Assembly: GCF_003946625.1 (NCBI RefSeq)
Contig: NZ_RHOR01000002.1
Span: 62,001-126,000, forward strand
Direction: 5' to 3'
Length of the DNA stretch: 64,000 bases
Source of the DNA: Companilactobacillus kedongensis
GTDB lineage: Bacteria > Bacillota > Bacilli > Lactobacillales > Lactobacillaceae
A program made the position numbers and the translations under genes. Below, one piece after another: positions 14,967 to 51,108 of the stretch (within the stretch, counting starts at the first letter, position 1; each line of letters opens with the position of its first letter). Below the pieces are notes generated by a model. It had not been told where the DNA came from. It worked only from the letters and a program-made list of their open reading frames with translations, and searched no databases.

Positions 14967-14973
14967 AACCTAA

Positions 14974-34728: not shown

Positions 34729-35837
34729 TGTTACCATCAACACATAGACCTGCCTACGTTGAAGTGAGCCTAGATAATTTAAAACATAATTTACAAAGTG
34801 AGATTGCAAGTGTTCCTAAAGGAACGGCAGTATTTGCCGTTGTAAAGGCGAATGCTTATGGTCATGGACTCGTCAGAGTAGCGCAAGCAGAAGTTGAATA
34901 TGGAGCCTCTGGACTCTGTGTGACAACATTAGATGAAGCTCTAGAGATACGTAATGCTGGAATCAAAGTTCCCATTTTAGTTTTGAGTATTACTCCAGTG
35001 CAGCATGCAATTTTAGCAGCCAATAACGATATTTCTTTGACGATCGGGTCACTAGATTGGTTAGAACAAGCTGTTAAAGAAAATGTTTCTGATTTGAAGA
35101 TTCATATTGGTGTCGACAGTGGTATGGGTCGAATCGGCTTCCGCAATAAAGCTGATTTGATCGAAGCCTGCAACTATATCAAAGATAATCCTGATAAATT
35201 TATACCGGAAGGATTGTTTACACACTTTGCTACAGCTGATAACCCCGATAAAACCTATTTCTTGAAGCAAGTTGCACGTTTTAAGGAATTGAAGTCAGAC
35301 CTACCACTAGATTTCAAGTACGTTCATTGTGCTAATACTGCCACTGCTTTATGGCATCAAGACTTGGCCATTAATATGGTCCGCTTCGGAATTGGTCTAT
35401 ATGGACTTAATCCGTCAGGAACAGATATTCCTGAAGTTCCGTTTGAATTAAGACCTGCGTTGAGTCTTCATTCAGAATTAGTCTTTGTTAAAGAAATCGC
35501 AAAGGGTGAAAAAGTTGGTTATGGGGCTACTTATACTAGCGACAAGTCAGAATGGATCGGTACTGTTCCGATTGGATACGCTGATGGCTGGTTGAGAAGG
35601 ATGCAAGGTTATGATGTTTTGATCAATGGTCAGAGATGTCAAATCGTGGGACGCATCTGCATGGATCAATTTATGGTCCGCCTACCTAAAGAATTACCAG
35701 TTGGAACTAAGGTTACTTTGATCGGTAAAGACGGTAATGAAAAGATAACCGCTACTGATGCCGCTAAATACGCTGATACTATCAACTATGAGATTCTCTG
35801 TTGTTTGACAGATCGGCTACCCCGGATCTATAAATAA
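34728..35837 (+). CDS. alr: Alanine racemase
   Basis: 369 residues. The PLP lysine is in FAVVKANAYGHG, DSGMGRIGFR follows, and the C-terminal-domain catalytic tyrosine is in KVGYGATYTS. It makes D-alanine for peptidoglycan and teichoic acids. It is coupled to acpS. It is the last housekeeping gene before the selenium/proline island. Confidence 0.96.
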   Translation: MLPSTHRPAYVEVSLDNLKHNLQSEIASVPKGTAVFAVVKANAYGHGLVRVAQAEVEYGASGLCVTTLDEALEIRNAGIKVPILVLSITPVQHAILAANNDISLTIGSLDWLEQAVKENVSDLKIHIGVDSGMGRIGFRNKADLIEACNYIKDNPDKFIPEGLFTHFATADNPDKTYFLKQVARFKELKSDLPLDFKYVHCANTATALWHQDLAINMVRFGIGLYGLNPSGTDIPEVPFELRPALSLHSELVFVKEIAKGEKVGYGATYTSDKSEWIGTVPIGYADGWLRRMQGYDVLINGQRCQIVGRICMDQFMVRLPKELPVGTKVTLIGKDGNEKITATDAAKYADTINYEILCCLTDRLPRIYK

Positions 35838-35847
35838 TCCGGAATAC

Positions 35848-35882: not shown

Positions 35883-35946
35883 GCTGCAGAAATATTCCTA
35901 CAGTACATTTTTAGTTTGAATTGTGAACAATCCAATTTATATTCTC

Positions 35947-36043
35947 TGGCGGGAATGTGTGGGAATCGAACCCACCCAAGAAGCTACTAACCCCTCATAC
36001 TAGTTTTGAAGACTAGAAGGAACACCAGAACCTATCCACTCCC
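35947..36043 (-). tRNA. selC: tRNA-Sec (anticodon UCA)
   Basis: 97 nt with CCA encoded. The parts follow the bacterial Sec layout: 8-nt acceptor (GGGAGTGG), 2-nt link, 6-nt D-stem arms (AGGTTC, loop TGGT, GTTCCT), anticodon stem CTAGT/ACTAG with loop CTTCAAA (UCA), a 24-nt variable arm, T-arm GTGGG-TTCGATT-CCCAC and discriminator G before CCA. Irregularities: two U-U mismatches in the D stem and a G-A at the eighth acceptor pair. It lies divergently upstream of prdC. Together with selA, selB and selD this makes the assignment firm. Confidence 0.93.
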
Positions 36044-36251
36044 AAAAACAATGATAGCATAAAAATTTCAATATTCAATGTGGCATTTTAAAAAATCCTA
36101 TGCAGGGTTAATATATATTCCATTTGTATATAAAATCTCTACATTGTGATTGATTGTGTTAACAGATGTAATCGGACAGTATACTACAAAGAAAGGTATA
36201 TTGGTAGTGTGTCAAGTGATTTTTTAATTTAAATAAATATGTAAATTGCTA

Positions 36252-36280
36252 TTAAAATTATGAATATTTTGTGATACTAT
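36252..36280 (+). promoter_or_regulatory. Candidate promoter of the prd operon
   Basis: TTAAAA and an extended -10 (TG-A-TACTAT) are spaced by 17 bp. The start would be near 36287, leaving a leader of about 50 bases before prdC. Apart from this, the tRNA and the cre-like box, nothing else was recognised between 35883 and 36323. Confidence 0.5.
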
Positions 36281-36291
36281 GAACTTGCGAA

Positions 36292-36305
36292 TGAAAACGT
36301 CAACA
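36292..36305 (+). promoter_or_regulatory. cre-like box at the start of the prd operon
   Basis: TGAAAACGTCAACA matches the cre consensus with one deviation and lies just after the predicted transcription start, a repressing position. CcpA control of proline reductase is known in Clostridioides difficile. Confidence 0.5.
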
Positions 36306-36337
36306 ATATTTCGCTATCATATTTGGAGGGAGGTGAA

Positions 36338-37645
36338 ATGATGGAAAAAGTCACATATTTACTAAAACAACATGTTGGTGCACCCGACAAGCCAATTGTC
36401 GAAGTTGGTCAACATGTTCTAAGAGGGGAACTTATTGCAGAACCTAATGGATTAGGTGCTAATATCCATAGTAGTTTAACAGGAACAGTCACAGCCGTTG
36501 AGGATGACAGAATTATTCTAGATCCCGATGAGGAACAAGACATGGAGGACTATGTCAAACTTCCTGAAACTGATGATTATCTAAAAGCAATTGAAAATGC
36601 CGGTGTCGTAGGTGCTGGTGGTGCTGGATTCCCAACAGCAGTAAAACTTTCAAATAAGATTCCCGGCGGTTATTTAATCGTTAATGCCGCTGAATGTGAA
36701 CCACTATTTTGTCATAATACTGAGGTTGAAGAACGTTATCCAGAACAAATTGTTCGTGGAATTAAATATTTACTAAAGATCACAGGAGCTAAGGTTGGTT
36801 ATATTGCAATCAAGAAGATTCACCATGCTGCAGTACTTGCACTTGGTAAAGCTTGCAAGAATGAACCAAATATTCAAGTCAAATTCTTGACTAATATGTA
36901 CCCAGCTGGTGATGAAAGAGTTATTGTCAGACAATTACTCGATATAGTTCTTAAACCAGGTGAGTTACCTATTAAGGCCAATGCAATCATTCAAAACGTT
37001 GAGACAGTTAAGAGAATTGTCGAAGCTATTGAATTGAGAAAACCTGTTATTGATAAAGATATTACCGTTGATGGAAGAGTTAAGGAACAATCGACTGTAT
37101 ACGAGAATATTCCGATCGGATTGTCAGCTAAACACTTTATTGATGCATCAGGTGGTTACGTTAATCCACATGGTGATATCACAGTTGGTGGTCCATTTAC
37201 TGGACACACTGGTAGTGAAGATACACCTGTTACAAAGACAACAAGTGGATTCTTAGTAGCAATGCCATACCCCGATACTCATGGTAAGAAGTTCGGTATT
37301 CTTGAATGTGAGTGCGGTGGTCAAGAACCTCGTCTTAGAGAAATAGTTGATAAAATGGGTGGAAAAGTAGTATCTTTCCGCCGTTGCAAGAGAATGGTTT
37401 TAGTAAATGGAAGATATCGTTGTAGTCTTCCAGGAATTTGTCCTGGACAGGCAGATGCAGTCCTTGGAATGAAGAAAGAAGGAGCTGAGTCAATTTTGAC
37501 TGGTACATGTCAGGATTGAACAAACACCGTAACCGGTGTAGCTCCTCGTGTAGGAGTTTCAGTTTATCATTCTACAGATCACGTTTTAAGAGCAGCAGGT
37601 CATAGACTATATCGTAAACTTCCATCTGATTTTCAATCTAAGTAA
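36338..37645 (+). CDS. prdC: Proline reductase electron-transfer selenoprotein PrdC (in-frame UGA = Sec)
   Basis: 435 residues when UGA at 37517-37519 is read as selenocysteine (residue 394). The product is RnfC/NuoF-like: VGAGGAGFPTAVKL for NAD/FMN binding and NAAECEPLF. Sec lies in the C-x-x-Sec motif TCQD-Sec, followed by 41 conserved-looking codons to TAA. A hairpin with GU in its loop follows the UGA. PrdC passes electrons, probably from NADH, to the reductase. Start at 36338 or 36341; both follow GGAGGGAGGTG. It begins an operon reaching at least prdF. Confidence 0.9.
37517..37560 (+). promoter_or_regulatory. UGA-Sec codon and SECIS-like stem-loops in prdC
   Basis: Downstream of UGA lie ACACCG/CGGTGT (37524-37539) and CTCCT/AGGAG with loop CGTGT (37542-37556). 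The second has GU in the loop, about 29 bases from the UGA, within the bacterial SECIS range. Which one SelB binds is undecided. Confidence 0.65.
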
Positions 37646-37668
37646 TTTTCAAGGGAGGTAGACAGGAT

Positions 37669-39615
37669 ATGTCTATAACTAAAGAAACAGCCATGGACCA
37701 TATTAATGATCCAGCTGTCCTATGCTGTAGAGCAGAGGGCGGAATTACTATCGAAGCACCAAATTTGGAAGATCCATCATTATTTGATGACTACGTTGAT
37801 TCCGGACTTCTAGAATTACCAGATGATGTTTTAAAGATTGGTCAAGTACTAGGCGCAACATTGAGCAAAACAACAGATGCACTTATTCCTTTAACAGCTG
37901 CAAATGTTGATAACATTCAATCAATGGATGACGATAGTGATGACGATGACGCATCAGCTGATGACGATAGTTCAGATGCAGACAATGCACCTGTAGCTAC
38001 TGAAGACGTGAATACTGCACCAAGTACAACAGTTGCACCAGCCTCTGTTGCAAGCACTTCTAATGGAACAATCAAGATCGATATTGCCGAAGGTAAAGGA
38101 ATTCATTTAGAAGTTCCTATGGCCTCAGCAGTATCAGCTGCACCAGCAGCTCAAAGTGAAGCTAAATTAGCAGCTGACGGTAATGCCGCTGCACCAGCTT
38201 CAGATGACTCAGCAGACGCTTCATCAGATGATGACGAAGTAGAAGCAAAAGTTATCAGAGAGCTAGAACGTGATCACGTTCAAATCGACAAAGTAGTATT
38301 TGGCGACAAGACTGAGATCGATGGTACAACTTTGACTATTAGAACACCTAAAGACTTGTGTAAAGAAGCTGTTGAAACTCAAGATATCGTTAAAGATATG
38401 ACTTTAGATATCATTACACCTGACGATTATGACAAATATAGTGAAACAATCATGGATGTTCAACCTATTGCTACAAAGACTGAAGGAGAAATCGGTACAG
38501 GTGTTACACGTGTAATCGATGGAGCTGTCTTCGTATTAACAGGTACAGATGAAAACGGAGTTCAAATTGGTGAATTCGGATCATCTGAAGGTGAAATGAG
38601 CAAGAATATTATGTGGGGTCGTCCTGGTTCTCCAGATAAAGGCGAAATCCTCATTAAAGCTCAAGTAACAATTGAAGCAGGACGTAACATGGAACGTGTA
38701 GGTCCTTTGGCTTCCCATAAAGCCGCTGATGTTATTACTCAAGAAATCAGAGAAGCCCTTAAGAAGGCTGATGCTGGTCTCATTACTAAGAAAGATGAAC
38801 TCAAACAAGTACGTCATCCAAAACAAAAACGTGTTGTTATTGTTAAGGAAATCATGGGACAAGGTGCTATGCACGATAACTTGATCATGCCCGTAGAACC
38901 TGTTGGTACATTAGGTGCTAAACCTAACGTTGACCTTGGTAACTTACCAATCATGCTATCACCTCTTGAAGTATTAGATGGTGGTATTCACGCTTTGACA
39001 TGTATTGGACCTGCTTCTAAGGAAATGTCTCGTCACTACTGGCGTGAACCAATGGTTCAAGCTGCTATGGACGACGAAGATATTGACTTAGTAGGTGTAT
39101 TGTTTGTTGGTTCACCACAAGCAAATACTGAGAAATTCTACGTTTCTAAGAGACTTGGAATGACAATTGAAGCAATGGACCTTGATGGTGCTATTGTTAC
39201 AACTGAAGGATTTGGTAACAATCATATTGACTTTGCATCACATCTAGAACAAATCGGTTCAAGAGGCGTTCCTGTTGTTGGTATGTCATACTGTGCCGTT
39301 CAAGGTGCTCTTGTTGTTGGTAACAAGTACATGGACGCAATGGTTGATAATAACAAATCTGCTCAAGGTATTGAAAATGAAATTCTTGAGAATAACACAT
39401 TATGTCAAGAAGATGCAATCAGAGCTCTAGCTATGTTGGAAACAAAGATGGCTGGCGGTAAGATTGAAAAAGCTGAACGTAAGTGGAATCCAAATGTTAA
39501 GGAAAATAACCTTAAGGTTATCGAAAAACATGATGGAATCAAGATCGACAGAGCTCCAAATGAGCAATCATTGCCAAAGAGCAAGAAGAGACTTGAAATC
39601 TACGAAAAAGAATAA
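37669..39615 (+). CDS. prdA: D-proline reductase proprotein PrdA
   Basis: 648 residues. The self-processing site is in IHALTCIGPASKE, with Cys445 becoming the pyruvoyl group; cleavage gives a 444-residue and a 204-residue subunit, the latter matching the 23-kDa subunit known in clostridia. Residues about 90-205 form a low-complexity linker of Asp, Ala and Ser. D-proline is bound through the pyruvoyl carbonyl and opened to 5-aminovalerate with PrdB. AGGGAGG precedes the ATG. Central gene of the prd operon. Confidence 0.95.
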   Translation: MSITKETAMDHINDPAVLCCRAEGGITIEAPNLEDPSLFDDYVDSGLLELPDDVLKIGQVLGATLSKTTDALIPLTAANVDNIQSMDDDSDDDDASADDDSSDADNAPVATEDVNTAPSTTVAPASVASTSNGTIKIDIAEGKGIHLEVPMASAVSAAPAAQSEAKLAADGNAAAPASDDSADASSDDDEVEAKVIRELERDHVQIDKVVFGDKTEIDGTTLTIRTPKDLCKEAVETQDIVKDMTLDIITPDDYDKYSETIMDVQPIATKTEGEIGTGVTRVIDGAVFVLTGTDENGVQIGEFGSSEGEMSKNIMWGRPGSPDKGEILIKAQVTIEAGRNMERVGPLASHKAADVITQEIREALKKADAGLITKKDELKQVRHPKQKRVVIVKEIMGQGAMHDNLIMPVEPVGTLGAKPNVDLGNLPIMLSPLEVLDGGIHALTCIGPASKEMSRHYWREPMVQAAMDDEDIDLVGVLFVGSPQANTEKFYVSKRLGMTIEAMDLDGAIVTTEGFGNNHIDFASHLEQIGSRGVPVVGMSYCAVQGALVVGNKYMDAMVDNNKSAQGIENEILENNTLCQEDAIRALAMLETKMAGGKIEKAERKWNPNVKENNLKVIEKHDGIKIDRAPNEQSLPKSKKRLEIYEKE

Positions 39616-39634
39616 TGAATGAAGGGTAACTGGT

Positions 39635-39937
39635 ATGGATAATTACGATTTATTAAATTACGCATCTACAGAACGACTTTTCGAAGGAATCATTTCTGAA
39701 GTTACAGATGCAGGTGTCATGATTGAATTAAAGGGAAGATTAGGTACTCTCAAAATACCTAAGAGAATGTTGATTTCTGAACATGAACCACAAATTGGTC
39801 ATGAAGTAGGATTCTTAATGTCCTATCCCGAAGTCCTATCCGAAACCCCGAATGCAGATTACGTTAAAGCTATTGATGATTATAAAAAACATCAAGTTGA
39901 GATAAAACAGCGTACTAAGGAAAGGAAGGAAGAATAA
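39635..39937 (+). CDS. Small prd-cluster protein (CBO2463/CBO2479-like)
   Basis: 100 residues, soluble, with a short beta-rich N-terminal part (RLFEGIISEVTDAGVMIELK) and a Lys/Glu-rich C-terminal helix. Proteins of this size sit between prdA and prdB in clostridial clusters, where I recall the label CBO2463/CBO2479 domain; that name is from memory. Its stop overlaps the prdB start by one base, so it is produced with PrdB. It could be an assembly or RNA/chaperone-like factor; function unknown. Confidence 0.75.
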   Translation: MDNYDLLNYASTERLFEGIISEVTDAGVMIELKGRLGTLKIPKRMLISEHEPQIGHEVGFLMSYPEVLSETPNADYVKAIDDYKKHQVEIKQRTKERKEE

Positions 39938-40662
39938 TGTCCTTAAAGAAGTATGATGGCTTACAGTCAGAAATTTATGTTCCTATCACACCTCAGCCTG
40001 TTTGGGCACCTGTTACAAAAGAGCTGAAAGATATGAAGATCGGAATTGCTACGGCTGCTGGTGTTCATCTAAAGAGTGATAAAAGATTTAATCTAGCCGG
40101 TGATACAAGTTACCGTGAGATCCCTTGGGATACAAAAACGGATGATTTGATGGTATCACATGGTGGTTATGATAATAGTGATGTTAATAAAGATATTAAC
40201 TGTATGTTCCCAATCGATAGATTGCGTGAACTTGCAGATGCAGGCTTTATCAAAGGCTTAGCACCCACAGAATATGGTTTCATGGGTGGTGGTGGTGACA
40301 TCGAAGCCTTTACAGATAAAACTGGTCCAGAAATTGCTCAAAAATTAAAGGCTGAAGATGTTGATGCCGTAATTATGACTGCCGGTTGAGGAACTTGTCA
40401 TAGATCTGCCGTGATCGTGCAGAGAGCAATCGAATCCGTTGGGATTCCTACAATTTTAATTGCCGCATTACCTCCAGTAGTACGTCAAAATGGTTCACCT
40501 AGAGCTACAGCTCCTCGTGTACCAATGGGTGCTAACGCTGGTGAGCCTCACAATGTTGAAATGCAAACAGGCATTGTTAAGGATACTTTGAAGCAATTCG
40601 AAATTCTTGATTCACCAGGAAAAATTGTGCCTTTACCATATGAATATATAGCTAAGGTCTAG
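39937..40662 (+). CDS. prdB: D-proline reductase selenoprotein PrdB (in-frame UGA = Sec)
   Basis: 241 residues when UGA at 40387-40389 is read as Sec (residue 151), in the motif TAG-Sec-GTCHRS, i.e. Sec-x-x-Cys, the known PrdB active site. The frame continues without break to TAG, with conserved-looking VGIPTILIAALPPV. The selenol attacks the alpha C-N bond of the PrdA-bound proline. Read without recoding it would look like two genes. Stem-loop TCTGC/GCAGA with a GU-containing loop follows the UGA. Confidence 0.95.
40387..40424 (+). promoter_or_regulatory. UGA-Sec codon and SECIS-like stem-loop in prdB
   Basis: TCTGC (40405-40409) pairs with GCAGA (40419-40423); the loop CGTGATCGT holds GU about 22-28 bases from the UGA, as expected for a bacterial SECIS. 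Confidence 0.7.
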
Positions 40663-40671
40663 TTTGACCAT

Positions 40672-40706
40672 AAAAGGAGGGTATATATTATTCCCTCCTT
40701 TTATTG
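40672..40706 (+). terminator. Hairpin between prdB and prdD
   Basis: A perfect 10-bp stem AAAAGGAGGG/CCCTCCTTTT with an AT-rich loop and a short T-tail. It may terminate part of the transcripts or set an mRNA end so that prdCAB is made in excess over prdDEF. Confidence 0.6.
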
Positions 40707-40725
40707 TTAGTAAGGGGATTTTCAA

Positions 40726-41466
40726 ATGAATAAAAATACTCTAACTATAAATGCATTTTCAATGCAAGATGTCACAATTGGACCAAAGTATCATATAACA
40801 AATACCAGTCTAGAGATTCCAGATCATCCATTGTTTGATATTGACGATCGGTTAAAATCCATTAAGGTCAAACTAGTTGATCCCAAGGATTGCCATTTTA
40901 AAATAAATACAATTATGGATGTTATCCCAATTTCTACAAAGGTTTTGGGTAATATAGGCTACGGCATGTCAAACACACTGACTGGTGTCAGTGTGATTTT
41001 GACTGGTGCCGATGAAACTGGTGTGCAATTGCATGAATTTGGTTCTTCAAATGGCTATCTTGATGAAAAAATTAAATTTGATACAGATGGTACCCCTAGT
41101 TCTGATGATACGATCATCTTAATTGATGTGACTTTGAAATCAGACTTTGAGTTCAATCGTAAAACCTGTGAAATGGTGTTTAACAGTGCTGATCAGTTTT
41201 TACAACCGATCAGAGAAGAATTGAAAGTTATGAACGGTCGCAATGCTGCTGAAAGCTTTGAATATGAAGATATTAAACATCCGGGTAAGCCAAAAGTTGC
41301 TGTCGTAAAAGAGGTAGCTGGACAAGGTGCCATGTACGACAATATGGTTTTTGCAAAAGAGCCAGGCGGTATTGAAAAAGGTATATCCATTATTGATATG
41401 GACAATATGCCCATTCTACTTTCTGCGAATGAATACCGTGATGGTGCTATTCATGCCTTAGTTTAG
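40726..41466 (+). CDS. prdD: PrdD, paralogue of the PrdA large half
   Basis: 246 residues similar to the PrdA part before the processing site: IMDVIPISTKVLGNIGYG, FGSSNGYLDEK, VKEVAGQGAMYDN. It ends ...DGAIHALV and stops exactly where PrdA has its Thr-Cys cleavage site, so it makes no pyruvoyl group. PrdD and PrdE occur in clostridial prd clusters, role uncertain (accessory or structural). prdE follows after 11 bases. Confidence 0.9.
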   Translation: MNKNTLTINAFSMQDVTIGPKYHITNTSLEIPDHPLFDIDDRLKSIKVKLVDPKDCHFKINTIMDVIPISTKVLGNIGYGMSNTLTGVSVILTGADETGVQLHEFGSSNGYLDEKIKFDTDGTPSSDDTIILIDVTLKSDFEFNRKTCEMVFNSADQFLQPIREELKVMNGRNAAESFEYEDIKHPGKPKVAVVKEVAGQGAMYDNMVFAKEPGGIEKGISIIDMDNMPILLSANEYRDGAIHALV

Positions 41467-41477
41467 GAGGTAGTGAA

Positions 41478-41957
41478 ATGGGTATTGGACCTTCAACAAA
41501 AGAAACAACTATGCATCATTTCCATGATCCACTAGTCAGAGTTGTAGCAAGCGACCCTGATGTAGATTTTCAAGGAGTTATCCTCGTGGGAACACCTCAA
41601 GATAATTATCTAAAGAATCTGGTAGGTCGAAGAACTGCTTTTTGGCTCGAAGCTATGCGTACTAACGGAGCTATTATTTCAGCCGACGGTTGGGGAAATT
41701 CCGATGTGGATTTCATTAACACAATGACTGAGATAGGTGACAAAGGTATCAGTATAGTTGGGCTGAAGTTTATTGGTAAGCAAGCGGGATTTGTGGTCGA
41801 AAGCGAACACACAAAATTTGTATTAGATATCAATAAATCAAAAAGTGGAACTGAAACTGAAATTGTTGGTGACAATAATCTTAATGAAAAAGACGCTCAT
41901 AAAGCGTTGGGACTATTAAAATTAAAAATGAGAAAAGATGGACAAGTTCCAAAATAG
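41478..41957 (+). CDS. prdE: PrdE, paralogue of the PrdA small half
   Basis: 159 residues that start MGIGPSTKE where PrdA has CIGPASKE, i.e. at the cleavage position but with Gly in place of Cys. The rest matches the PrdA pyruvoyl subunit (VILVGTPQDNYLKN, TNGAIISADGWGNSDVDF). It probably pairs with PrdD. AGGAGG before the start. Function not established. Confidence 0.9.
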   Translation: MGIGPSTKETTMHHFHDPLVRVVASDPDVDFQGVILVGTPQDNYLKNLVGRRTAFWLEAMRTNGAIISADGWGNSDVDFINTMTEIGDKGISIVGLKFIGKQAGFVVESEHTKFVLDINKSKSGTETEIVGDNNLNEKDAHKALGLLKLKMRKDGQVPK

Positions 41958-41969
41958 GAGGAAAACATA

Positions 41970-42986
41970 ATGCAATTTAGTAGAAGCATGACTGCAATCG
42001 ATTCACATACAGCTGGAGAAGCAGCTAGAATTGTTACCGGTGGTATTCCAAAGCTAGTTGGTAACACAATCGCTGAGAAAAAGCAGTATTTGATCGACAA
42101 TTATGATGATATTAGAACATCACTCATGTTAGAGCCAAGAGGACATCATGAAATGTTCGGTGCTTTCTTACTTGAACCATGTAATCCAGAAGCCGACTTT
42201 GGTATCGTCTTCATGGATACTGGTGGTTACTTGAATATGTGTGGTCACAACACAATTGCTGCTGTTACAGCTATCGTTGAAACAGGTATGGTTGATGTTG
42301 AACCAGGCGCAACTGAAAAGAAGGTTGTCTTAGACACACCTGCTGGATTAGTTCACGCTGTTGCACATCTAAAAGAAGGACTACAAGTAGAAAGCGTTTC
42401 ATTCCAAAACGTACCATCATTCCTATACAAGAAAGACGTTAAAGTAAATGTTCCTGATATTGGGGAAATTACTTTGGACATCTCATTTGGTGGAAGTTTC
42501 TTCGCAATTTTACCAGTTTCAGAAATTAATGAAAAAATTGAAACAAGTAATTCACAAAAATTAGCAGATGTAGGTATGAAGATCTTGCACGCTGTTAATG
42601 ATCAAGTTGAGATTCAACATCCAACTTTGGACCACATTAAGACAGTTGATTTAGTTGAAATGTATGGCGAACCAAAAGATGAAGAATCAACACTTCAAAA
42701 TGTTGTTGTCTTTGGTGACGGACAAGTTGACCGCTCACCTTGTGGTACTGGTACAAGTGCTAAGATGGCTACATTACATGCTAGAGGAAAACTTGATATT
42801 GACGAGAAATTCGTTTATGAAAGTATTCTAGAAACAAAATTCTACGGCCGTGTTGTTAAGGAAGTAGAAGAGGGCGGACTACCAGCAGTAATTCCAGAAG
42901 TTACTGGTTCAGCCTGGATCACAGGATTTAATAATTTCATGTTCGACCCAACAGATCCATTGTCAAAAGGTTTCGAACTGAAGTAG
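41970..42986 (+). CDS. prdF: Proline racemase
   Basis: 338 residues. Both catalytic cysteines are present: MCGHNTIAA (residue about 91) and DRSPCGTGTSAKMA (about 255). It converts L-proline into D-proline, the PrdA/PrdB substrate. The N-terminal AIDSHTAGEAARIVTGG is typical. AGGAGG precedes the ATG, and the gene is close to prdE and the permease. Confidence 0.95.
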   Translation: MQFSRSMTAIDSHTAGEAARIVTGGIPKLVGNTIAEKKQYLIDNYDDIRTSLMLEPRGHHEMFGAFLLEPCNPEADFGIVFMDTGGYLNMCGHNTIAAVTAIVETGMVDVEPGATEKKVVLDTPAGLVHAVAHLKEGLQVESVSFQNVPSFLYKKDVKVNVPDIGEITLDISFGGSFFAILPVSEINEKIETSNSQKLADVGMKILHAVNDQVEIQHPTLDHIKTVDLVEMYGEPKDEESTLQNVVVFGDGQVDRSPCGTGTSAKMATLHARGKLDIDEKFVYESILETKFYGRVVKEVEEGGLPAVIPEVTGSAWITGFNNFMFDPTDPLSKGFELK

Positions 42987-42999
42987 AGGAGGAAACGCC

Positions 43000-43875
43000 G
43001 TGGTTTTAGTTGTACAAATTATTCTAGCAGTAGTATTAATCTACTTTGCTATCATATTTTTCGCAGATTATTATAAACACAGACATGAAAACGACGGTAA
43101 CATTGTTGTTGCCGGAGTTATCGGTGCAATTACCAATTTCTTAGATACATTAGGTATCGGAAGTTATGCACCTACGACCTTATTATTGAAGGTTACTAAA
43201 TTTTTGAAATCAGATAAACTGATTCCTGGTACACTTACAGTTGCCTGTACCATTCCAGTTATCACAGAGGCATTTCTATTTATTGATGCCATTAAAATGG
43301 AAGGTGCAACCTTGTTATCAATGGTTGCCGCAGCTGCTATTGGATCATTCACTGGTTCAAAGATCATGACAAAATTCAATGAAAAAATCATTAGAATTAT
43401 CATGGGTATTGCGCTATTCTTAACGGCTATCTTAATGTTACTATCACAACTAGGTGTCATCAGTGCTTTAGGTGCTGGTAATACAGCCCTTGGACTTCAC
43501 GGTAGTAAATTAGTTATTGCTGTTGTTGTTAACTTTATTTTGGGTGCACTTATGACAGCCGGTGTTGGTTTGTACGCACCATGTATGGCCCTAGTTTATA
43601 TGTTAGGAATGAACCCAGCCGTTGCATTCCCAATCATGATGGCTTCATGTGCTGTGCTTATGCCAGTTGCAAGTAGAGAATTCGTTAAATCAGGTGACTA
43701 CAATAGACGTGGTAGTATGGGTATCACAATTGGCGGTATTATCGGTGTTGTAATTGCCGTAACATTCGTTAAGAGTCTTGACCTAACTGTTCTAACATGG
43801 CTTATTATTGTTGTTGTTACATATACTGGTCTATCAATGCTTTATCAAGGTATCAGACAAAAGAACGCGGCTTAG
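43000..43875 (+). CDS. TauE/SafE family membrane permease
   Basis: 291 residues with about eight hydrophobic segments in two related halves. It belongs to the TauE/SafE (formerly DUF81) family, which moves sulfite, sulfoacetate and other small anions. The start is GTG after AGAGGAGG. It lies between prdF and selD, so it may import a selenium species (selenite is a sulfite analogue) or move a product of proline reduction. A selenium role is inference from position. Confidence 0.82.
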   Translation: MVLVVQIILAVVLIYFAIIFFADYYKHRHENDGNIVVAGVIGAITNFLDTLGIGSYAPTTLLLKVTKFLKSDKLIPGTLTVACTIPVITEAFLFIDAIKMEGATLLSMVAAAAIGSFTGSKIMTKFNEKIIRIIMGIALFLTAILMLLSQLGVISALGAGNTALGLHGSKLVIAVVVNFILGALMTAGVGLYAPCMALVYMLGMNPAVAFPIMMASCAVLMPVASREFVKSGDYNRRGSMGITIGGIIGVVIAVTFVKSLDLTVLTWLIIVVVTYTGLSMLYQGIRQKNAA

Positions 43876-43930
43876 TTTTTAAATTGAGGTTTCTATTGAG
43901 GTTTTATTAAATTATACGGAGGGGATTATT

Positions 43931-44953
43931 ATGGATACAGCTGATAGATTGATTGTTTGTGGTGGATGTAATGCTAAACTTGGTCCCGGAAAATTAGAGA
44001 ACATTTTAAAGGATCTACATCAAGATAAAAAACCAAATGTAATGGTTGATTTTGAAACAACAGATGATGCTGCTATTTTAAAAATAAATGATGACACTGC
44101 AATTATTCAAACAATTGATTTCTTCCCTTCAATGGTAAGTGATCCGTATCTATTCGGACAGATTGCTGCTACTAATGCTCTTAGTGATGTTTGGGCAATG
44201 GGTGGTTCAGTAGTTTCTGCTTTGAATATTGTCGGTTTCCCTGAGGAAATGAATCAATCTATTTTACACAAGATCCTAAAAGGTGGACTCGAAAAAGTAA
44301 CTGAAGCCGGTGGCTTCTTGGCGGGTGGTCATTCCATCCAAGATCACCGTCCAAAGTACGGACTTTCAGTTAATGGTATCGTTTCACCTAAGAAGGTTTT
44401 GAGAAATGATACGTGTAAATTAGGTGATGATCTGATTTTAACCAAACCTTTAGGTGTTGGTATTGTCACGACTGCATACGGAGCTGAACAAATCGGCGAA
44501 GAGGAATTTAATGAAGCCATTAAAAGTATGACGACATTAAATAAATACGCTGCTGAAATTATTAGAGATTATCCTGTAACAGCATGTACTGATATTACGG
44601 GATTTGGCCTCTTAGGCCACTTAAATGAATTTTTACATGACGAATATACTGCTGAACTAGATTCAACAAGTATTCCCATGATCCCCGCTGCATATGATTG
44701 TGCTGAAGAGCTATTAGTAACCGGTGGTGGCCAACGTAATCGTATCTTCTTAGATGGCAAGATCGACTTCACTTTCGATGATCCTGCACTTGAAGAAATT
44801 CTGTTTGATCCCCAGACATCAGGCGGTTTGATGTTCAGTGTAGATCCAAAATATACTGATGAAATATTAGACAAATTAAACCAGTTGGAGCTTCCCAGTG
44901 CAAAAATTGGTAAGATTGTACCGAAGGGTGATTCAGAGATCGTAGTTAAATAA
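43931..44953 (+). CDS. selD: Selenide, water dikinase
   Basis: 340 residues of the PurM/SelD fold. The catalytic motif near the N-terminus is CGGCNAKLGPG: Cys13 takes the place of the Cys/Sec residue and Lys16 the catalytic lysine; the protein is thus Cys-type. DDAAIL and FGQIAATNALSDVWAMGG bind metal/ATP. It makes selenophosphate from selenide and ATP. GGAGGGG precedes the ATG. A TTGAGG direct repeat lies in the 55-bp gap upstream. Confidence 0.95.
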   Translation: MDTADRLIVCGGCNAKLGPGKLENILKDLHQDKKPNVMVDFETTDDAAILKINDDTAIIQTIDFFPSMVSDPYLFGQIAATNALSDVWAMGGSVVSALNIVGFPEEMNQSILHKILKGGLEKVTEAGGFLAGGHSIQDHRPKYGLSVNGIVSPKKVLRNDTCKLGDDLILTKPLGVGIVTTAYGAEQIGEEEFNEAIKSMTTLNKYAAEIIRDYPVTACTDITGFGLLGHLNEFLHDEYTAELDSTSIPMIPAAYDCAEELLVTGGGQRNRIFLDGKIDFTFDDPALEEILFDPQTSGGLMFSVDPKYTDEILDKLNQLELPSAKIGKIVPKGDSEIVVK

Positions 44954-44966
44954 GGAGAGTGTAATT

Positions 44967-45560
44967 TTGGAAAAAATTAATGCGTTAGATAAAGTTTGTC
45001 CAGCACCAATTATTATGGCAAAGAGAGCCTTGAAAGAAACTGATGAAGTTGAAATATTAGTAGACGATGATATGGCACCTCAAAATCTTAAGAAGTTAGC
45101 TGACCAAAAGAGCTACGACTATGATGTTAAAAAAGGTGATAATAATCAGTTCACTGTCACATTAAAGAAAACTGAAAAATCACATGATCAAGCCGAAAGT
45201 TCTTCCCTCAATGACCAAGGCAGTTCATATATCGTTGTGATCAATACAGACATCATGGGGCATGGAGACGATACCCTTGGTAAGAATCTCTTACATGGGT
45301 TCGTATCTTCATTAACTGAACAAGATGTTTTGCCTGATAAGATCCTTTGTTATAACGGTGGTGTAAAACTACTTGTTGAAGGATCAGATTATTTAACAGA
45401 CTTGAAGGCCCTTGAAGAAGCTGGCGTCCAAGTTATGGGATGCGGAGCATGTCTCGACTACTTCAACTTAAAAGATAAACTAGCTGTAGGTACTATCACC
45501 AATATGTTCAGTATTGTTGAAATGATGAGACAACAGAATCGTATCGTAAGACCAGATTAG
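44967..45560 (+). CDS. yedF: YedF-type selenium-metabolism protein (TusA-like plus DsrE-like)
   Basis: 197 residues in two parts. The N-terminal TusA-like domain has KVCPAPIIMAKRAL (CPxP motif); the C-terminal DsrE/DsrF-like domain has VMGCGACLDYF. This fusion is widely linked to selD and is thought to carry reactive sulfur/selenium. The start is TTG with AAGGAGAG upstream. Confidence 0.88.
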   Translation: MEKINALDKVCPAPIIMAKRALKETDEVEILVDDDMAPQNLKKLADQKSYDYDVKKGDNNQFTVTLKKTEKSHDQAESSSLNDQGSSYIVVINTDIMGHGDDTLGKNLLHGFVSSLTEQDVLPDKILCYNGGVKLLVEGSDYLTDLKALEEAGVQVMGCGACLDYFNLKDKLAVGTITNMFSIVEMMRQQNRIVRPD

Positions 45561-45573
45561 AGGCTAAGATAAA

Positions 45574-45840
45574 ATGGAAACAAAATTTGGATTATTGACA
45601 TTTTCAACTACGCATCAGGCCATCGCAACAAACGAACTTTTAAAGAGTAAACAAGAGTTTGAAACCAGCATAATTTCGACACCTGGAAAGATTTCGGCTG
45701 GATGCGGTATGAGTGTCAGGTTCAATTATTCAGATAAAGATGCTATTTTGAAACTTTTAGCTGATGAAGATCTGCAGTTTCAAAACATCTATGTGGGAAC
45801 ACGTGTAGGTGTCAGAATCACTTACGAATTAGACGATTAA
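45574..45840 (+). CDS. DUF3343 putative Se/S carrier
   Basis: 88 residues. The single Cys is in GKISAGCGMSVRF, the signature of DUF3343 proteins found in Sec gene clusters and proposed as Se/S carriers. It lies between yedF and selB with gaps of about 12 bases. Confidence 0.85.
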   Translation: METKFGLLTFSTTHQAIATNELLKSKQEFETSIISTPGKISAGCGMSVRFNYSDKDAILKLLADEDLQFQNIYVGTRVGVRITYELDD

Positions 45841-45851
45841 AAGGAGTTATC

Positions 45852-47762
45852 ATGGAAACAATAGGTCAAGATCAAATAATTATAGCGACTGCAGGACATG
45901 TTGATCACGGTAAAACTACTTTAATCAAAGCTTTGACAGGAATCGATACTGATTCCACAGAAGCAGAAAAAAAGCGAGGCCTAACCATTAACTTGGGCTT
46001 CGCTTTTTTCGACTTACCGAATCATGAACAAGTAGGTATCGTTGATGTCCCTGGTCACGAAAAATTTCTAAAAAATATGATTGCAGGACTTAGTGGAATA
46101 GACTTAGTTCTCTTAGTTGTTGATGCCGCTGAAGGTATTATGCCTCAGACAATTGAGCACGTTGACATTATGTCATTACTTGGAATCGACAATTATATTG
46201 TTGTTTTGAGTAAGATCGATACAGTCGATGATGAGATGAAAGAGTTAGTTACAGAAGACGTTAAAGACTTCTTAGACAAACATAAAATCGATGCACCGAT
46301 CCTCGATGTTGATGCTATCAGTGGTACCGGTATGAAAGAATTGATCAAGGTTATGGATGAAAAAATTGAAAACATCGAAAAGCCTAAGGTCAATGATATT
46401 CCAAGAATCAATGTAGACCGTTCATTTTCTATCAAAGGCTTTGGTACGATCGTTACCGGAACACTGCTTGAAGGTGAATTGAATACTGATATGACTCTGG
46501 AAGCCTTTCCTAGCGGTAAACAAACTAAAATAAGAAATATCCAAGTTCACGATCGCAACGTAAAGCGTGCTGAACCCGGAACTAGAACAGCTATCAATTT
46601 GACGAATCTAAAGACATCCGAGATCCGCCGTGGGGATGTTTTGACACTTCCTGACAATATCAAGAAGACGTGGATGCTCGATGTTGACTATAAGATGTTG
46701 CCAGATAAGGATGCCAACTTACTAGGGTTGTGGACTCGTGTTCGTGTATATTTAGGTGCACGTGAGATCATTGCTCGAGTGGTTCCTTTAGGTATCGAAC
46801 AAATTGATGCTGATAAAGATAACTATCTCCAACTTCGTTTGGAAGAACCAGTTGCCGTCAAGAAGGGTGACCGTTATATTTTACGGACGTATTCACCTAT
46901 GGTTTTGATCGGTGGCGGTAGTGTGCTTGACCCTAATCCGGACAAGCATCGTCGTTTTAATGAAAAAGTATTGAAGCAATTATCAGTCAAAGCCTCTGGT
47001 AATCAAGAACAAATCGTCTTAGATTTCCTTGATAATTCGAGTGCTTTAGGATCAAAGATCCCTGAATTGGCAGACTATTTGAACTTATCCAATGATGATG
47101 TTCAAAAGATGATCAGTGATTTGGTAAAACAAAAAGAAGTTGTTAAGATATCTGGTTTGATCATCAAAAAGTCTAAACTAGAAGATTTCGATAAAGAAAT
47201 TCTCGACACACTTTGGAATTACCATAAAAAGAATCGCCTGCAAAAGGGGATGCCAAAAGAGGAATTGATCACTAAGTTCAAGATTTCAGTTGATGACAAT
47301 AAGATAATGGAAAAAATCTTAAAGAAGATGGCTGAATTAGGACAGATCAATATCTTAGGATCACTGATCGCTGCTGGTGACTTTGAGGTCAAATATAACA
47401 AGTATCAACAAAAGGCTCATGATGAAATTATTAGTGAGTTGAATAAATCACCATTGATGCCACCTAACTTTGATGATCTAATCGGATCTGATAAGACTAA
47501 GGAAGAAGTGCTTAAGGCTATTGAAGGTGAAGAGGTTCTTCGTTTAGGTGAAAAAAACGTTATGTTAAAATCCGCCTTTGACGAAGTGTCCAAGAAAGTC
47601 GTTGATTATTTGAAAGAAAATGAAACGATGACTTTGGCTGAATTCAGAGATTTAACTGGAGCTAGTCGTAAGTACGGAATGATGACACTTGAGTATATGG
47701 ACAAGTTAGGAATTACTCGTAGGAAAGAAAATATGAGAATTTTGGCAAAGAAGGAATTATAA
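45852..47762 (+). CDS. selB: Selenocysteine-specific elongation factor
   Basis: 636 residues. The GTPase domain has GHVDHGKTTLIKAL and DVPGHEKFLKNMIAG; EF-Tu-like domains 2-3 follow, then C-terminal winged helices (from about 380) that bind SECIS RNA. It brings Sec-tRNA to UGA codons on the ribosome. The ATG follows AAAGGAG. The stop overlaps the next gene by one base. Confidence 0.96.
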   Translation: METIGQDQIIIATAGHVDHGKTTLIKALTGIDTDSTEAEKKRGLTINLGFAFFDLPNHEQVGIVDVPGHEKFLKNMIAGLSGIDLVLLVVDAAEGIMPQTIEHVDIMSLLGIDNYIVVLSKIDTVDDEMKELVTEDVKDFLDKHKIDAPILDVDAISGTGMKELIKVMDEKIENIEKPKVNDIPRINVDRSFSIKGFGTIVTGTLLEGELNTDMTLEAFPSGKQTKIRNIQVHDRNVKRAEPGTRTAINLTNLKTSEIRRGDVLTLPDNIKKTWMLDVDYKMLPDKDANLLGLWTRVRVYLGAREIIARVVPLGIEQIDADKDNYLQLRLEEPVAVKKGDRYILRTYSPMVLIGGGSVLDPNPDKHRRFNEKVLKQLSVKASGNQEQIVLDFLDNSSALGSKIPELADYLNLSNDDVQKMISDLVKQKEVVKISGLIIKKSKLEDFDKEILDTLWNYHKKNRLQKGMPKEELITKFKISVDDNKIMEKILKKMAELGQINILGSLIAAGDFEVKYNKYQQKAHDEIISELNKSPLMPPNFDDLIGSDKTKEEVLKAIEGEEVLRLGEKNVMLKSAFDEVSKKVVDYLKENETMTLAEFRDLTGASRKYGMMTLEYMDKLGITRRKENMRILAKKEL

Positions 47763-48922
47763 TGATCTATTTTGATAATGCTGCAACTACTGCAATTAAA
47801 CCCAAAGAAGTCGGAGAGAGCGTTTCAAATGTTTTGGTAAGTGGTCTTTATGGTAATCCCGGTCGTGATTCATCTGAATTCAGTGTTAACAGTGGGGTTG
47901 TCGTTAATCAGACTAGAGACAAGCTTGTAAAGCTGTTTAATGTTCCATCCAATGATTTAGTCACATTTACGACTAATGTCACTGAGAGTCTTAATACAGT
48001 TTTGAAGGGTATCCTTAGGGAAGGTGACCATGTCATCACAACTGATTACGAGCACAATTCTGTTTTGAGACCTTTGGCTCAATTAAAAGAGAAACGAAAT
48101 GTTGACGTTGATTATGTAACTTTTGATAAAGAGACAGGGTTACTCTGTGTTGAAGATTTTGAAAAGTATTTGAAACCCAATACTAAAGCTGTTGTCTGCA
48201 ATAATGCATCAAATGTAACTGGCTATGTTTTGCCGATCAAACAGATCAGTGGGTTTTGTCAGAAGCATGATCTATTATTGATCGTTGATGCAGCTCAAAC
48301 AGCTGGAGTCGAAGACATCGATATTCAAAGAGATAAAATTGATGTTCTTTGCTTTACTGGTCACAAATCATTGTATGGGCCACAAGGTATTGGAGGGATC
48401 TGTTTTAGAAAGCCAATCGAAATTGAACCACTAAAGAGCGGTGGAACTGGAATTGATTCTTTCAACACGAGTATGCCTAAATTCTTCCCAACACGTCTTG
48501 AAGCGGGAACAATGAATGTGCCTGGTATCGTTGGCCTGTCAGCAGGTATAGATTACGTAAATAAAAAAGGTATTGATAATATTAAAAATTATATTAATGG
48601 TCTTGTTTCAAGAATCATGGAAACTTTACAACAATACCCAGAAATCAAGATCTATACTCCATTTAATGCTGAAATCACTGGTACAGTAGGTTTTAACATT
48701 GGTGATATTGATTCTGCTGAAGTCGGTCAGTGGCTTTGGGATAATTACCAAATTGCTACTAGACCTGGAGCTCACTGTGCTCCACGAGTTCATGAAAGAT
48801 ATGGCACAGTAGAACAAGGTATCGTTAGAATTTCATTGTCCAGTTTTAATAAGGATGAAGAAGTGGATACTTTCCTAAAAGCAATCAAAGAATTTATGGA
48901 TATTTATAGAAGGGGACTCTAA
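47762..48922 (+). CDS. Cysteine desulfurase / selenocysteine lyase family protein
   Basis: 386 residues of aminotransferase class V. The N-terminal IYFDNAATTAIKP, the PLP lysine in FTGHKSLYGPQG and the persulfide Cys in PGAHCAPRVHE are all present. Such genes often sit in sel clusters and may deliver sulfur or selenium to SelD. It overlaps both selB and selA by one base, so it is made in proportion to them. Confidence 0.9.
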   Translation: MIYFDNAATTAIKPKEVGESVSNVLVSGLYGNPGRDSSEFSVNSGVVVNQTRDKLVKLFNVPSNDLVTFTTNVTESLNTVLKGILREGDHVITTDYEHNSVLRPLAQLKEKRNVDVDYVTFDKETGLLCVEDFEKYLKPNTKAVVCNNASNVTGYVLPIKQISGFCQKHDLLLIVDAAQTAGVEDIDIQRDKIDVLCFTGHKSLYGPQGIGGICFRKPIEIEPLKSGGTGIDSFNTSMPKFFPTRLEAGTMNVPGIVGLSAGIDYVNKKGIDNIKNYINGLVSRIMETLQQYPEIKIYTPFNAEITGTVGFNIGDIDSAEVGQWLWDNYQIATRPGAHCAPRVHERYGTVEQGIVRISLSSFNKDEEVDTFLKAIKEFMDIYRRGL

Positions 48923-50310
48923 TGGATCAAAAAAAGTTATTCAGAAGTTTACCATCAGTTAATGATTTGCTAAATTCCGATAAGATATCAGAATTGTCAA
49001 AAACAGTCGGTGCTAATGAACTGAAAAACTTGGTTCAAGAAGCAATTGAAGATGCTCGTCAATCAATTTTGAGCGGTGATATAACTGATGCCGGCGAAGT
49101 ATCGATTGAATGCATGTATCAAGATTTACTAAGTAAGATGGATGATGATCGAGTTTTAGAATTACAACCAGTTATCAATGCTACGGGAGTAATTCTCCAT
49201 ACTAATTTAGGACGTGCCAAGTTGGCCGATTCAGCCCGTCATGCTATCGACGCCATTGCTAGTAATGCAACTAATTTGGAATATGACATTACTTTAGGAG
49301 AGCGTGGCGATCGTTACAAGGCAATCGGCAAGTTGGTCAGTGAATTGACTGGTGCCGATGATGCGATTGTTGTTAATAATAATGCAGCAGCCGTAATGCT
49401 AGTCTTGAGTACCTTCTTTAGTAATAAAGAGATCATTACTTCTCGTGGTCAATTAGTTGAGATCGGTGGTTCGTTCAGAGTACCTGATATTATCACTTCA
49501 ACTGGTGGTATCTTGCGTGAAGTAGGGACAACTAACAAAACTCATCTACGTGATTATGAAAATGCCATTAATGAGAATACTGGTGGTTTTTTGATCGTTC
49601 ATACAAGTAATTATAAAGTTATCGGCTTTACCGAAACACCTGATTCTAAGGAATTGAAGAAGTTAGCCGAAAAGTATGATTTACCACTTATGAATGATCT
49701 AGGAAGTGGTTTGATGCTTGACCTATCCGAATATGGTTTAGGCAAAGAACCAACTATCAGCCAAGAATTACAGAATTGTGATTTAGTTATGTTCTCAGGT
49801 GATAAATTACTTGGTGGACCACAAGCTGGTATTATTGCCGGTAAGCAGAAGTATATCGACAAATTAAAACACAATCAGTTATTGAGAGCTTTGCGTGTTG
49901 ACAAGATGACTTTGGCTGCTTTAACTGAAACTTTGAAGATTTATCGTGATCCAGAAAAGGCTATGACTGAAATACCAGTCTTGAATGCCTTAACTGTTAT
50001 TGAGGATAAGTTAAAAGAACGTGCTGAAAACTTGTTGTCATTGATCAAAGAGAAGACTTCGTTTGATGCTGAAATAGTTGCTGGAGATACAGTTGTTGGT
50101 GGGGGTTCATTCCCAGATGTTAAATTACCAACATACTTGTTAAGTCTTGAGTCTGATATTCCGGTTGTGAAGTTAGATAAGCTTTTGAAATATGTTAAAT
50201 ATCCATTGATTTCAAGAGTTCATGATGAAAGTATTTTGTTTGATATTAGAACAATTGATGATCCAGAATTTGATAAGATCATTACTGATTTAAATGAAAT
50301 CAAGAAATGA
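48922..50310 (+). CDS. selA: L-seryl-tRNA(Sec) selenium transferase
   Basis: 462 residues. The PLP lysine is in MFSGDKLLGGPQAG, with SelA-typical INATGVILHTNLGRA and VEIGGSFRVPDI. It turns Ser-tRNA-Sec into Sec-tRNA-Sec using selenophosphate, the bacterial one-step route. It is the last gene of the island and is followed by a strong bidirectional terminator. Confidence 0.96.
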   Translation: MDQKKLFRSLPSVNDLLNSDKISELSKTVGANELKNLVQEAIEDARQSILSGDITDAGEVSIECMYQDLLSKMDDDRVLELQPVINATGVILHTNLGRAKLADSARHAIDAIASNATNLEYDITLGERGDRYKAIGKLVSELTGADDAIVVNNNAAAVMLVLSTFFSNKEIITSRGQLVEIGGSFRVPDIITSTGGILREVGTTNKTHLRDYENAINENTGGFLIVHTSNYKVIGFTETPDSKELKKLAEKYDLPLMNDLGSGLMLDLSEYGLGKEPTISQELQNCDLVMFSGDKLLGGPQAGIIAGKQKYIDKLKHNQLLRALRVDKMTLAALTETLKIYRDPEKAMTEIPVLNALTVIEDKLKERAENLLSLIKEKTSFDAEIVAGDTVVGGGSFPDVKLPTYLLSLESDIPVVKLDKLLKYVKYPLISRVHDESILFDIRTIDDPEFDKIITDLNEIKK

Positions 50311-50349
50311 AAAAAGAGATCAGCTAGTTTACTAGCTGATCTCTTTTTA
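50311..50349. terminator. Bidirectional terminator between selA and the CBS gene
   Basis: AGAGATCAGCTAG pairs with CTAGCTGATCTCT around a TTTA loop, with A-runs before and T-runs after, so it serves both convergent units. Confidence 0.92.
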
Positions 50350-51012
50350 TTATAGTGTGTGTTTATCTAAAAGTTTTCCGGAATTCAAATCATCGATTTC
50401 TGAAACTATAAAGCTCTTTTTCTCTAAACGAGTGATGATATTCTTCAAATCTTCGATGGTTGTTTCAGCAGGCAAAGTAAAGAGATTTCTTCTTACAACT
50501 TCATTTGTCTTTGCATCAAGCGTGATACAACCTGATATTGAAACGTATTTAGCAATGATCTTTAACATCTTTGCCAGATCACCACGTTCACCGGTTGAGC
50601 TAACTGTTAAAACATAGCTGCTGACTTCCAGATTCCAAGCGTCAGACAACATTGTCAAAAGACTGGCATGAGTCAAAATACCATAAAACATATTTGATTC
50701 ATCCAAAACGGCAATGTAAGGAAGATCTTTGATATTAAAGAATACTTTGAAGAATGGTGAATCAACATTAATTGTCTTGGTAGCATTCTTCATCAGAGTT
50801 GTGACGGGAAGACTCATGTCGCCTCCACGTGATTTATGACGGTAGATGTGCATTTTGTAAATATTTCCCCTAAATATTTGACCGCTTTCATCTAGGATAG
50901 GAACACACCTAAAACCTGATTCCTCAAGGACTTTCAACGCTTCTTCAAGTGTGACAGTTTCTTTTACTGTAACTAATTTATCTTTTTTAAGTACTAATGA
51001 CTTAACTAACAT
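50350..51012 (-). CDS. CBS-pair protein with C-terminal ACT-like domain
   Basis: 220 residues from the ATG at 51012. Two CBS motifs (VTLEEALKVLEESGFRCVPI, then ITHASLLTML-like FYGILTHASLL) and an ACT-like tail (SSYVLTVSSTGERGDLAKM). Similar proteins in Listeria and lactobacilli are c-di-AMP binders (CbpA-like); binding here is inference. A longer frame starts 29 codons upstream but lacks a good ribosome site and would run into the ldh terminator region. Confidence 0.8.
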   Translation of the reverse strand: MLVKSLVLKKDKLVTVKETVTLEEALKVLEESGFRCVPILDESGQIFRGNIYKMHIYRHKSRGGDMSLPVTTLMKNATKTINVDSPFFKVFFNIKDLPYIAVLDESNMFYGILTHASLLTMLSDAWNLEVSSYVLTVSSTGERGDLAKMLKIIAKYVSISGCITLDAKTNEVVRRNLFTLPAETTIEDLKNIITRLEKKSFIVSEIDDLNSGKLLDKHTL

Positions 51013-51070
51013 ATATTTCACATCCAATCCAACTATATGAAAACAATGATACAGTAAATTTTCACAAAAA

Positions 51071-51094
51071 AAAAGAATGCCTAGGCATTCTTTT
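51071..51094 (-). terminator. Terminator of ldh
   Basis: A perfect palindrome (AAAAGAATGCC/GGCATTCTTTT); on the minus strand it is followed by a long T-run. Its GCCTAGGC core is also present in the alr terminator. Confidence 0.88.
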
Positions 51095-51108
51095 ATCAAT
51101 ATTAAGGA

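Follow-up and report, generated by a model that had tools for sequence, protein, structure and literature searches.

Proline reductase, encoded by prd genes, is best known from clostridia. Here we describe a block of prd genes and selenocysteine (Sec)-decoding genes (sel) in a lactic acid bacterium, Companilactobacillus kedongensis, within a 64,000-nucleotide stretch of its genome (contig NZ_RHOR01000002.1, positions 62,001 to 126,000 of the forward strand; the whole stretch is called the window, and positions are counted from its first letter). The coupling of prd with sel is already in print, in the passages we consulted, for two plasmid systems. In Terrisporobacter, a prd and sel unit resides on 21-kb proline-Stickland plasmids that also carry selC, the racemase being chromosomal (PMC10564238), and in Ligilactobacillus salivarius JCM1046, prd and sel genes are tabulated for region R1 of the megaplasmid pMP1046A, with prdB labeled a probable pseudogene (PMC4165912, Table 2). 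The passages of selenium surveys that we consulted make no mention of Sec decoding in Lactobacillaceae.

The Terrisporobacter plasmids resemble the C. kedongensis block in bringing together prdC, prdA, a gene for a CBO2463-domain protein (CBO), prdB, prdD, a prdE-like gene, selA, selB, selD, DUF3343 and a desulfurase gene, but they are clostridial and so of another order, encode a PrdC without Sec and include a selenium-associated LysR gene. The L. salivarius region, from the same family as C. kedongensis, is closer in order (prdA-CBO-prdB-prdD-prdE-like-prdF-TauE, a permease gene, then yedF-DUF3343-selB-desulfurase-selA). It differs in being plasmid-borne, in having a divergent prdC without a Sec codon and selD downstream, and in its extra genes (yeeE/yedE, tusA and a rhodanese gene); its PrdA is 64% identical to that of the window. 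Clostridioides difficile shares the core prd genes and has Sec in PrdB in 4/4 loci, but the four prd loci examined gave no sel matches and PrdC lacked Sec in the two loci scored. What is new in the present data is a glycine reductase (grd) operon as a second partner of the sel genes, the loss of prd beside retained sel genes and the exchange of the sel cassette between lineages.

The block occupies about 14.4 kb of the chromosome between alr and cbpA, with ldh and pth beyond cbpA. It consists of a minus-strand tRNA-Sec gene and 14 plus-strand genes, in the order prdC-prdA-CBO2463-prdB-prdD-prdE-prdF-TauE-selD-yedF-DUF3343-selB-desulfurase-selA (Table 1), and all reading frames are intact except at the Sec codons of prdB and prdC. 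The Sec-decoding set is complete, comprising tRNA-Sec, SelA, SelB, SelD and UGA-containing clients. We consider it highly probable that the block represents an intact selenium-dependent proline Stickland branch with its Sec cassette, which entered the alr-cbpA junction in the ancestor of a single Companilactobacillus clade and was then inherited or lost. The genes and flanks named in an earlier note on this DNA (alr on one side; a CBS gene, ldh and pth on the other) are borne out by the tRNA search and by family models scored against curated NCBIfam cut-offs, and so is its statement that the Sec and proline reductase sets are complete, with PrdF alone under its cut-off and PrdE without a model of its own. 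That note did not include PrdC as a selenoprotein (U393), the CBO2463 and TauE/SafE genes or the glycine reductase client.

Table 1. Features of the prd-sel block, its flanks and the grd operon of the same genome; positions refer to the window unless a locus is named
Feature	Position	Strand	Evidence
alr, alanine racemase, left chromosomal flank	34728..35837	+	TIGR00492 383 bits, cut-off 168
tRNA-Sec (selC), anticodon TCA	35947..36043	-	ARAGORN; Rfam RF01852 66.3 bits, gathering 47
Conserved prdC promoter/leader TTGTGAT(N)3ATGAAC	36269..36314	+	Alignment of 9 Companilactobacillus upstream regions
prdC, electron-transfer protein	36341..37645	+	TIGR04481 498 bits, cut-off 490; C-terminus left out of scoring
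Putative prdC SECIS region, 15 codons 3' of TGA	37520..37564	+	Synonymous conservation, predicted hairpins
prdA, D-proline reductase proprotein	37669..39615	+	TIGR04480 967 bits, cut-off 700
CBO2463/CBO2479-domain protein, 100 amino acids	39635..39937	+	Between prdA and prdB
prdB, catalytic selenoprotein	39937..40662	+	TIGR04483 414 bits, cut-off 300, TGA read as Sec
Putative prdB SECIS region, 15 codons 3' of TGA	40390..40434	+	Synonymous conservation
prdD	40726..41466	+	TIGR04482 345 bits, cut-off 320
prdE, PrdA C-terminal-like	41478..41957	+	TIGR04480 partial, 145 bits
prdF, proline racemase	41970..42986	+	NF010576 511 bits, below cut-off 556
TauE/SafE membrane protein	43000..43875	+	PF01925 62 bits; between prdF and selD
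selD	43931..44953	+	TIGR00476 372 bits, cut-off 125
yedF	44967..45560	+	TIGR03527 217 bits, cut-off 110
DUF3343, putative Se/S carrier	45574..45840	+	PF11823 72 bits
selB	45852..47762	+	TIGR00475 360 bits, cut-off 242
Class-V desulfurase/Sec-lyase-like gene	47762..48922	+	TIGR01977 419 bits, cut-off 377
selA	48922..50310	+	TIGR00474 564 bits, cut-off 268
cbpA, cyclic-di-AMP-binding CBS protein, right chromosomal flank	50350..51099	-	NF038387 354 bits
grd operon of the window's own genome	L209 (G000:C2), 247-8359		Sec in GrdA and GrdB

Both catalytic and electron-transfer components carry in-frame UGA codons. In prdB, the TGA at 40387-40389 encodes residue 151 in the motif TAGUGTCHR, and in the read-through translation of prdC the TGA at 37517-37519 corresponds to residue 393 in CQDU, which matches the CxxU pattern listed for PrdC 'form 1' in the consulted part of a 2026 review (PMC13188914). 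To place these codons in context we compared 91 loci, comprising 80 relatives from a genome-contig scan, 8 stretches of related genomes, 2 plasmid records and the window, with 2 loci present twice. Sec precedes GTCHR of PrdB in 88 of the 91, the rest being one locus cut by a contig end, one that has lost the gene and one with Cys; PrdC has Sec at a CQDU-type motif in 72 loci, none in 13, and 6 were unscored. When same-residue codons were compared across nine Companilactobacillus, the same-codon fraction after the prdB UGA was 0.966, compared with 0.660 elsewhere in the gene (3 of 226 codon windows as high), and after the prdC UGA it was 0.837, compared with 0.607 (15 of 419). In three of these nine genomes (L004, L005 and L151), a hairpin predicted in prdC has a compensating change, ACACC/GGTGT being replaced by ATACC/GGTAT. 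The predicted hairpins and the synonymous constraint after the UGAs fit Sec insertion sequence (SECIS) elements.

Several features of the individual proteins qualify these assignments. An alternative ATG start of prdC is possible at 36338. PrdA contains a Thr-Cys context, HALTC, which we take to be the cleavage site for pyruvoyl formation. For PrdE no family model of its own matched, and the protein resembles the C-terminal part of PrdA. NF010576 was the best of seven superfamily models matched by PrdF, whose sequence has both cysteine motifs, MCGHN and SPCGTGTS, presumably those of a proline racemase. The desulfurase was also considered as the selenocysteine lyase SclA; it reached 319 bits against a cut-off of 525 (NF040779) and was filed as a TIGR01977 family member only. 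PrdC is divergent and without Sec in L. salivarius (L171), Limosilactobacillus (L012) and genome G106 (L156), and no PrdC match was obtained in the stretches covered for L006, L031 and L032, two of which lie near a contig end.

Two further genes accompany prd with great constancy. The CBO2463 protein was matched in 90 of the 91 loci and the TauE/SafE protein in 82, and because both are present also in loci without sel matches, they belong with prd. The CBO2463 protein is predicted to form a small beta-barrel with a C-terminal helix, a fold with weak likeness to RNA-binding barrels; for the TauE/SafE protein, transport of proline or 5-aminovalerate might be guessed. A different variant of the system occurs in genome G225, from another Lactobacillaceae genus, where prdC, prdA, prdB and prdF (L157, G225:C121:10000-29999, 9108-15156) have Cys in place of Sec in both proteins (PrdB TGGCGTCHR, PrdC NCSDCSNTV) and PrdA is very divergent (46%). 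We found no sel matches in about 35 kb around this prd locus and no SelB over the cut-off in the genome; judged by its sequence, it apparently encodes a selenium-free proline reductase.

Within the genus, 10 of 36 Companilactobacillus genomes have a tRNA-Sec that exceeds the gathering score, and the same 10 have SelB above its cut-off. PrdA exceeds its cut-off in nine of these ten, and PrdA was not matched in the 26 others; the nearest named relatives by PrdA are C. tucceti (93%) and C. baiquanensis (92%). On a gyrB DNA tree, all ten carriers fall inside one 15-species clade (98/93), and the carrier pattern needs four changes, a number as low being reached in 0 of 500 shuffles. Of 397 Lactobacillaceae genomes drawn, 12, from 4 of 40 genera, had SelB over the cut-off, and PrdA passed likewise in 12, with one genus more, the extra genome being G225 with its Cys form; all 12 SelB-positive genomes carry either PrdA (11) or grd (the Loigolactobacillus G033). 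Among 295 drawn Lactobacillales genomes, 34 had SelB over the cut-off (16 of 74 genera), and the 18 with PrdB over its cut-off all lay within these 34. The earlier note's description of Sec decoding as rare in Lactobacillales therefore calls for milder wording.

Comparison of the alr-ldh interval in congeners, which that note had recommended, places the block between alr and cbpA in nine of the ten carriers. In the tenth, G003, a gap of 57 bp separates alr from cbpA, so that the junction is empty, and the block lies about 1.1 Mb away, next to a prolyl-tRNA synthetase gene (L151 4207-5646, minus strand) and two peptidase genes named from their translations. The cbpA gene was matched in 36/36 congeners. 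In 12 of the 24 non-carriers examined, alr and cbpA are neighbors without the block, with gaps of up to about 1.8 kb; in 4 of the 24, a search over about 2.6-3.3 kb did not reveal alr, and 8 were undecided. Because ldh lies no more than 1.5 kb from cbpA in 30/30 congener loci, carriers and non-carriers alike, its proximity is inherited context and carries no signal. The block can also be eroded in place: in G397 (L153, G397:C17, 2828-4077), prdA, CBO, prdB, prdD and prdE are deleted and prdC abuts a prdF remnant, while tRNA-Sec and selD to selA are kept. No other PrdA was found in the G397 genome, which has a grd operon elsewhere (L211), and this operon may explain the persistence of Sec decoding there after the loss of prd.

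The grd operon came to light through weak matches of the PrdA model (67-76 bits) at a second locus, present in 9 of the 10 Sec-decoding species but absent from the 26 other Companilactobacillus. This locus is a complete glycine reductase operon, grdX-trxB-trxA-grdE-grdA-grdB-grdC-grdD, near two amino-acid permease genes. Its gene names are the same as those of the C. difficile operon in the consulted part of PMC3510511, the difference being that the host here is a lactobacillus. The grd family models were run on the window's genome and parts of G033. In the former they identified GrdA (NF040748, 251 bits, cut-off 130), GrdB (TIGR01917, 638.5 bits, cut-off 602.2), GrdC (NF040746, 767 bits, cut-off 450) and GrdD (NF040747, 567 bits, cut-off 350); the best match of GrdE was the sarcosine-type GrdG model (619.5 bits against a cut-off of 780), with no plain GrdE model among the matches. 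The Sec motifs TECFVUTSAG of GrdA and TSTUGTCTRC of GrdB are found in all nine Companilactobacillus loci, and G033 has slightly different versions of them, so that Sec is present in both proteins in 10/10 loci.

In the window's genome, the only sel genes seen are those of the prd block. In G033, tRNA-Sec, selD-yedF-DUF3343-selB-desulfurase-selA and grd lie together on a single stretch, and PrdA had no match above the cut-off; G003 has prd and no GrdD match. A portable Sec cassette thus appears to serve two Stickland reductases. We lean slightly towards a broader interpretation, in which the tRNA-Sec and sel cassette of Lactobacillaceae acts as a client-switching 'licence' for selenoenzymes, with prd as client in Companilactobacillus, grd in one Loigolactobacillus and both, served from one site, in most carriers; these lactic acid bacteria would then be full reductive Stickland fermenters that could draw ATP from glycine.

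The region upstream of prdC contains candidate control sites. TGTGAT(N)3ATGAAC is kept in 9/9 aligned Companilactobacillus, and just 3' of it lies an inverted repeat, GCGAA...TTCGC (36287-36314), whose GCGAA arm is present in eight of the nine regions and reads GCGAG in G003; the repeat is a possible operator or leader hairpin. A box resembling the catabolite-responsive element (cre), ATGAAAACGTCAACAA at 36291-36306, has one mismatch to the cre consensus, with 4 of 300 shuffles as good, and in 17 of the 18 promoters of prd and grd the best cre-like match departs from the consensus at one or two positions. In C. difficile, CcpA is bound at the prdA promoter and glucose induces prdA (PMC3510511, consulted in part), so catabolite control of the block might act in either direction. 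Elsewhere in the window, an L31-Firmicutes ribosomal protein leader is located at 29630-29662 (RF03156, 38.6 bits).

The origin of the block was assessed from trees in which the rows outside Lactobacillaceae are a sample. The nine Companilactobacillus of the 88-row PrdA tree fall into a single clade (100), and 34 rows, most of them clostridial, make up a separate one (99), with Megasphaera and Colibacter placed beside Vagococcus instead. Concatenation yields a group of 15 Lactobacillaceae rows (100) for the prd proteins (32 rows in all) and one of 17 (100/100) for the sel proteins (23 rows in all). These trees fit one old entry into Lactobacillaceae, or transfers inside the family, better than import from clostridia. 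A recent arrival of the entire island from clostridia might be expected from the fame of the enzyme in that group and from the joint mobility of prd and sel on the Terrisporobacter 21-kb plasmids and L. salivarius megaplasmids, but the separate clostridial PrdA clade, the grouping of Companilactobacillus with other Lactobacillaceae in both concatenates and the confinement of carriers to one clade of the genus speak against it. The block has a G+C content of 37.9%, compared with 37.3% in its surroundings, a native composition that weighs against recent arrival from a source of differing composition, and the genes from 35837 to 50350 include no integrase or transposase, so that among the marks of a mobile island only the empty site in relatives was seen. 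We therefore regard such an import as very unlikely. The earlier suggestion that the island came as a unit holds insofar as the block stays together and sits as a whole at another site in G003; a clostridial source is not supported by trees, G+C content or the gyrB distribution. Separately, Enterococcus termitis (L016) and Listeria farberi (L017) have nearly identical PrdA and SelB and form sister tips on very short branches, which suggests a recent between-family transfer.

The unity of Lactobacillaceae in the prd and sel trees, the few events needed on the gyrB tree and the partial loss visible in G397 would also suit strictly vertical descent, with prd, sel and grd ancestral to the family and only losses thereafter. 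However, SelB in just 12 of 397 genomes would then require many losses, the block is on plasmids in L. salivarius, and G033, which belongs to the same genus as two Loigolactobacillus rows, has a sel cassette that nests inside the Companilactobacillus group. Forcing the three Loigolactobacillus sel rows together costs 506 log units (approximately unbiased test, p 1.1e-6), and the G033 sel genes are nearer to Companilactobacillus than to congeners in 5/5 comparable cases, DUF3343 having no congener value. Because the grouping of G033 with its own genus is rejected, transfer of sel within Lactobacillaceae is shown once, and strictly vertical descent seems unlikely to us. The earlier note had held that trees showing vertical inheritance of PrdA and SelB would speak against transfer; the Lactobacillaceae tested do stand together, yet transfer inside the family occurred. 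That the block is a silent relic retained by chance is scarcely credible: G397 shows that prd can be deleted, but in the window every frame is intact, the Sec codons and the synonymous sites following them are conserved in nine congeners, and the promoter-leader motif is kept in 9/9.

Entry at the alr-cbpA junction in one ancestor, followed by inheritance and loss of an intact block, therefore remains our preferred account, and several points weigh against it. PrdF and the desulfurase (as SclA) score below the strictest cut-offs. The G003 block may be a second acquisition, given its other site and its uncertain placement relative to the species tree, and PrdC may have a separate history. The cre-like matches are weak: in only 7 of the 18 promoters was the match equaled in no more than 6 of 300 shuffles, and the matches do not always fall at the aligned position.

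From the gene content, Sec codons, distribution and trees we infer enzyme activities, Sec insertion, regulation and ancestral entry as follows, on the basis of the known biochemistry of the SelA, SelB, SelD, Prd and glycine reductase families. SelD would make selenophosphate, with the desulfurase, YedF and DUF3343 probably aiding selenide supply; SelA would convert Ser-tRNA-Sec to Sec-tRNA, and SelB would deliver it to UGA 151 of PrdB and UGA 393 of PrdC, helped by the downstream hairpins. PrdF is predicted to convert L-proline to D-proline, which pyruvoyl-containing PrdA together with PrdB would reduce to 5-aminovalerate, using electrons passed from NADH to PrdC. Proline reduction would thereby regenerate NAD+ and spare pyruvate from lactate; the NADH-sink role proposed in the earlier note is the one expected for the family. 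The sel cassette would also feed glycine reductase at the second locus, which would yield acetyl phosphate and hence ATP. Entry of the block at the alr-cbpA junction most likely took place in the ancestor of one Companilactobacillus clade; inheritance followed, with loss from some species, partial deletion in one and a different location in another, and a sel cassette belonging to that lineage is also present in a grd-only Loigolactobacillus.

Companilactobacillus is a genus known from fermented foods. The present data identify lactobacilli with a full Sec trait and two selenoenzymes predicted to reduce proline and glycine. If these are active, expectations for protein-rich ferments would be altered, with 5-aminovalerate, extra acetate and a demand for selenium, and a lactic acid bacterium would become available as a study system for Sec-dependent Stickland enzymes. 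The gain and loss of the 21st amino acid between sister species would then be open to study in lactobacilli.

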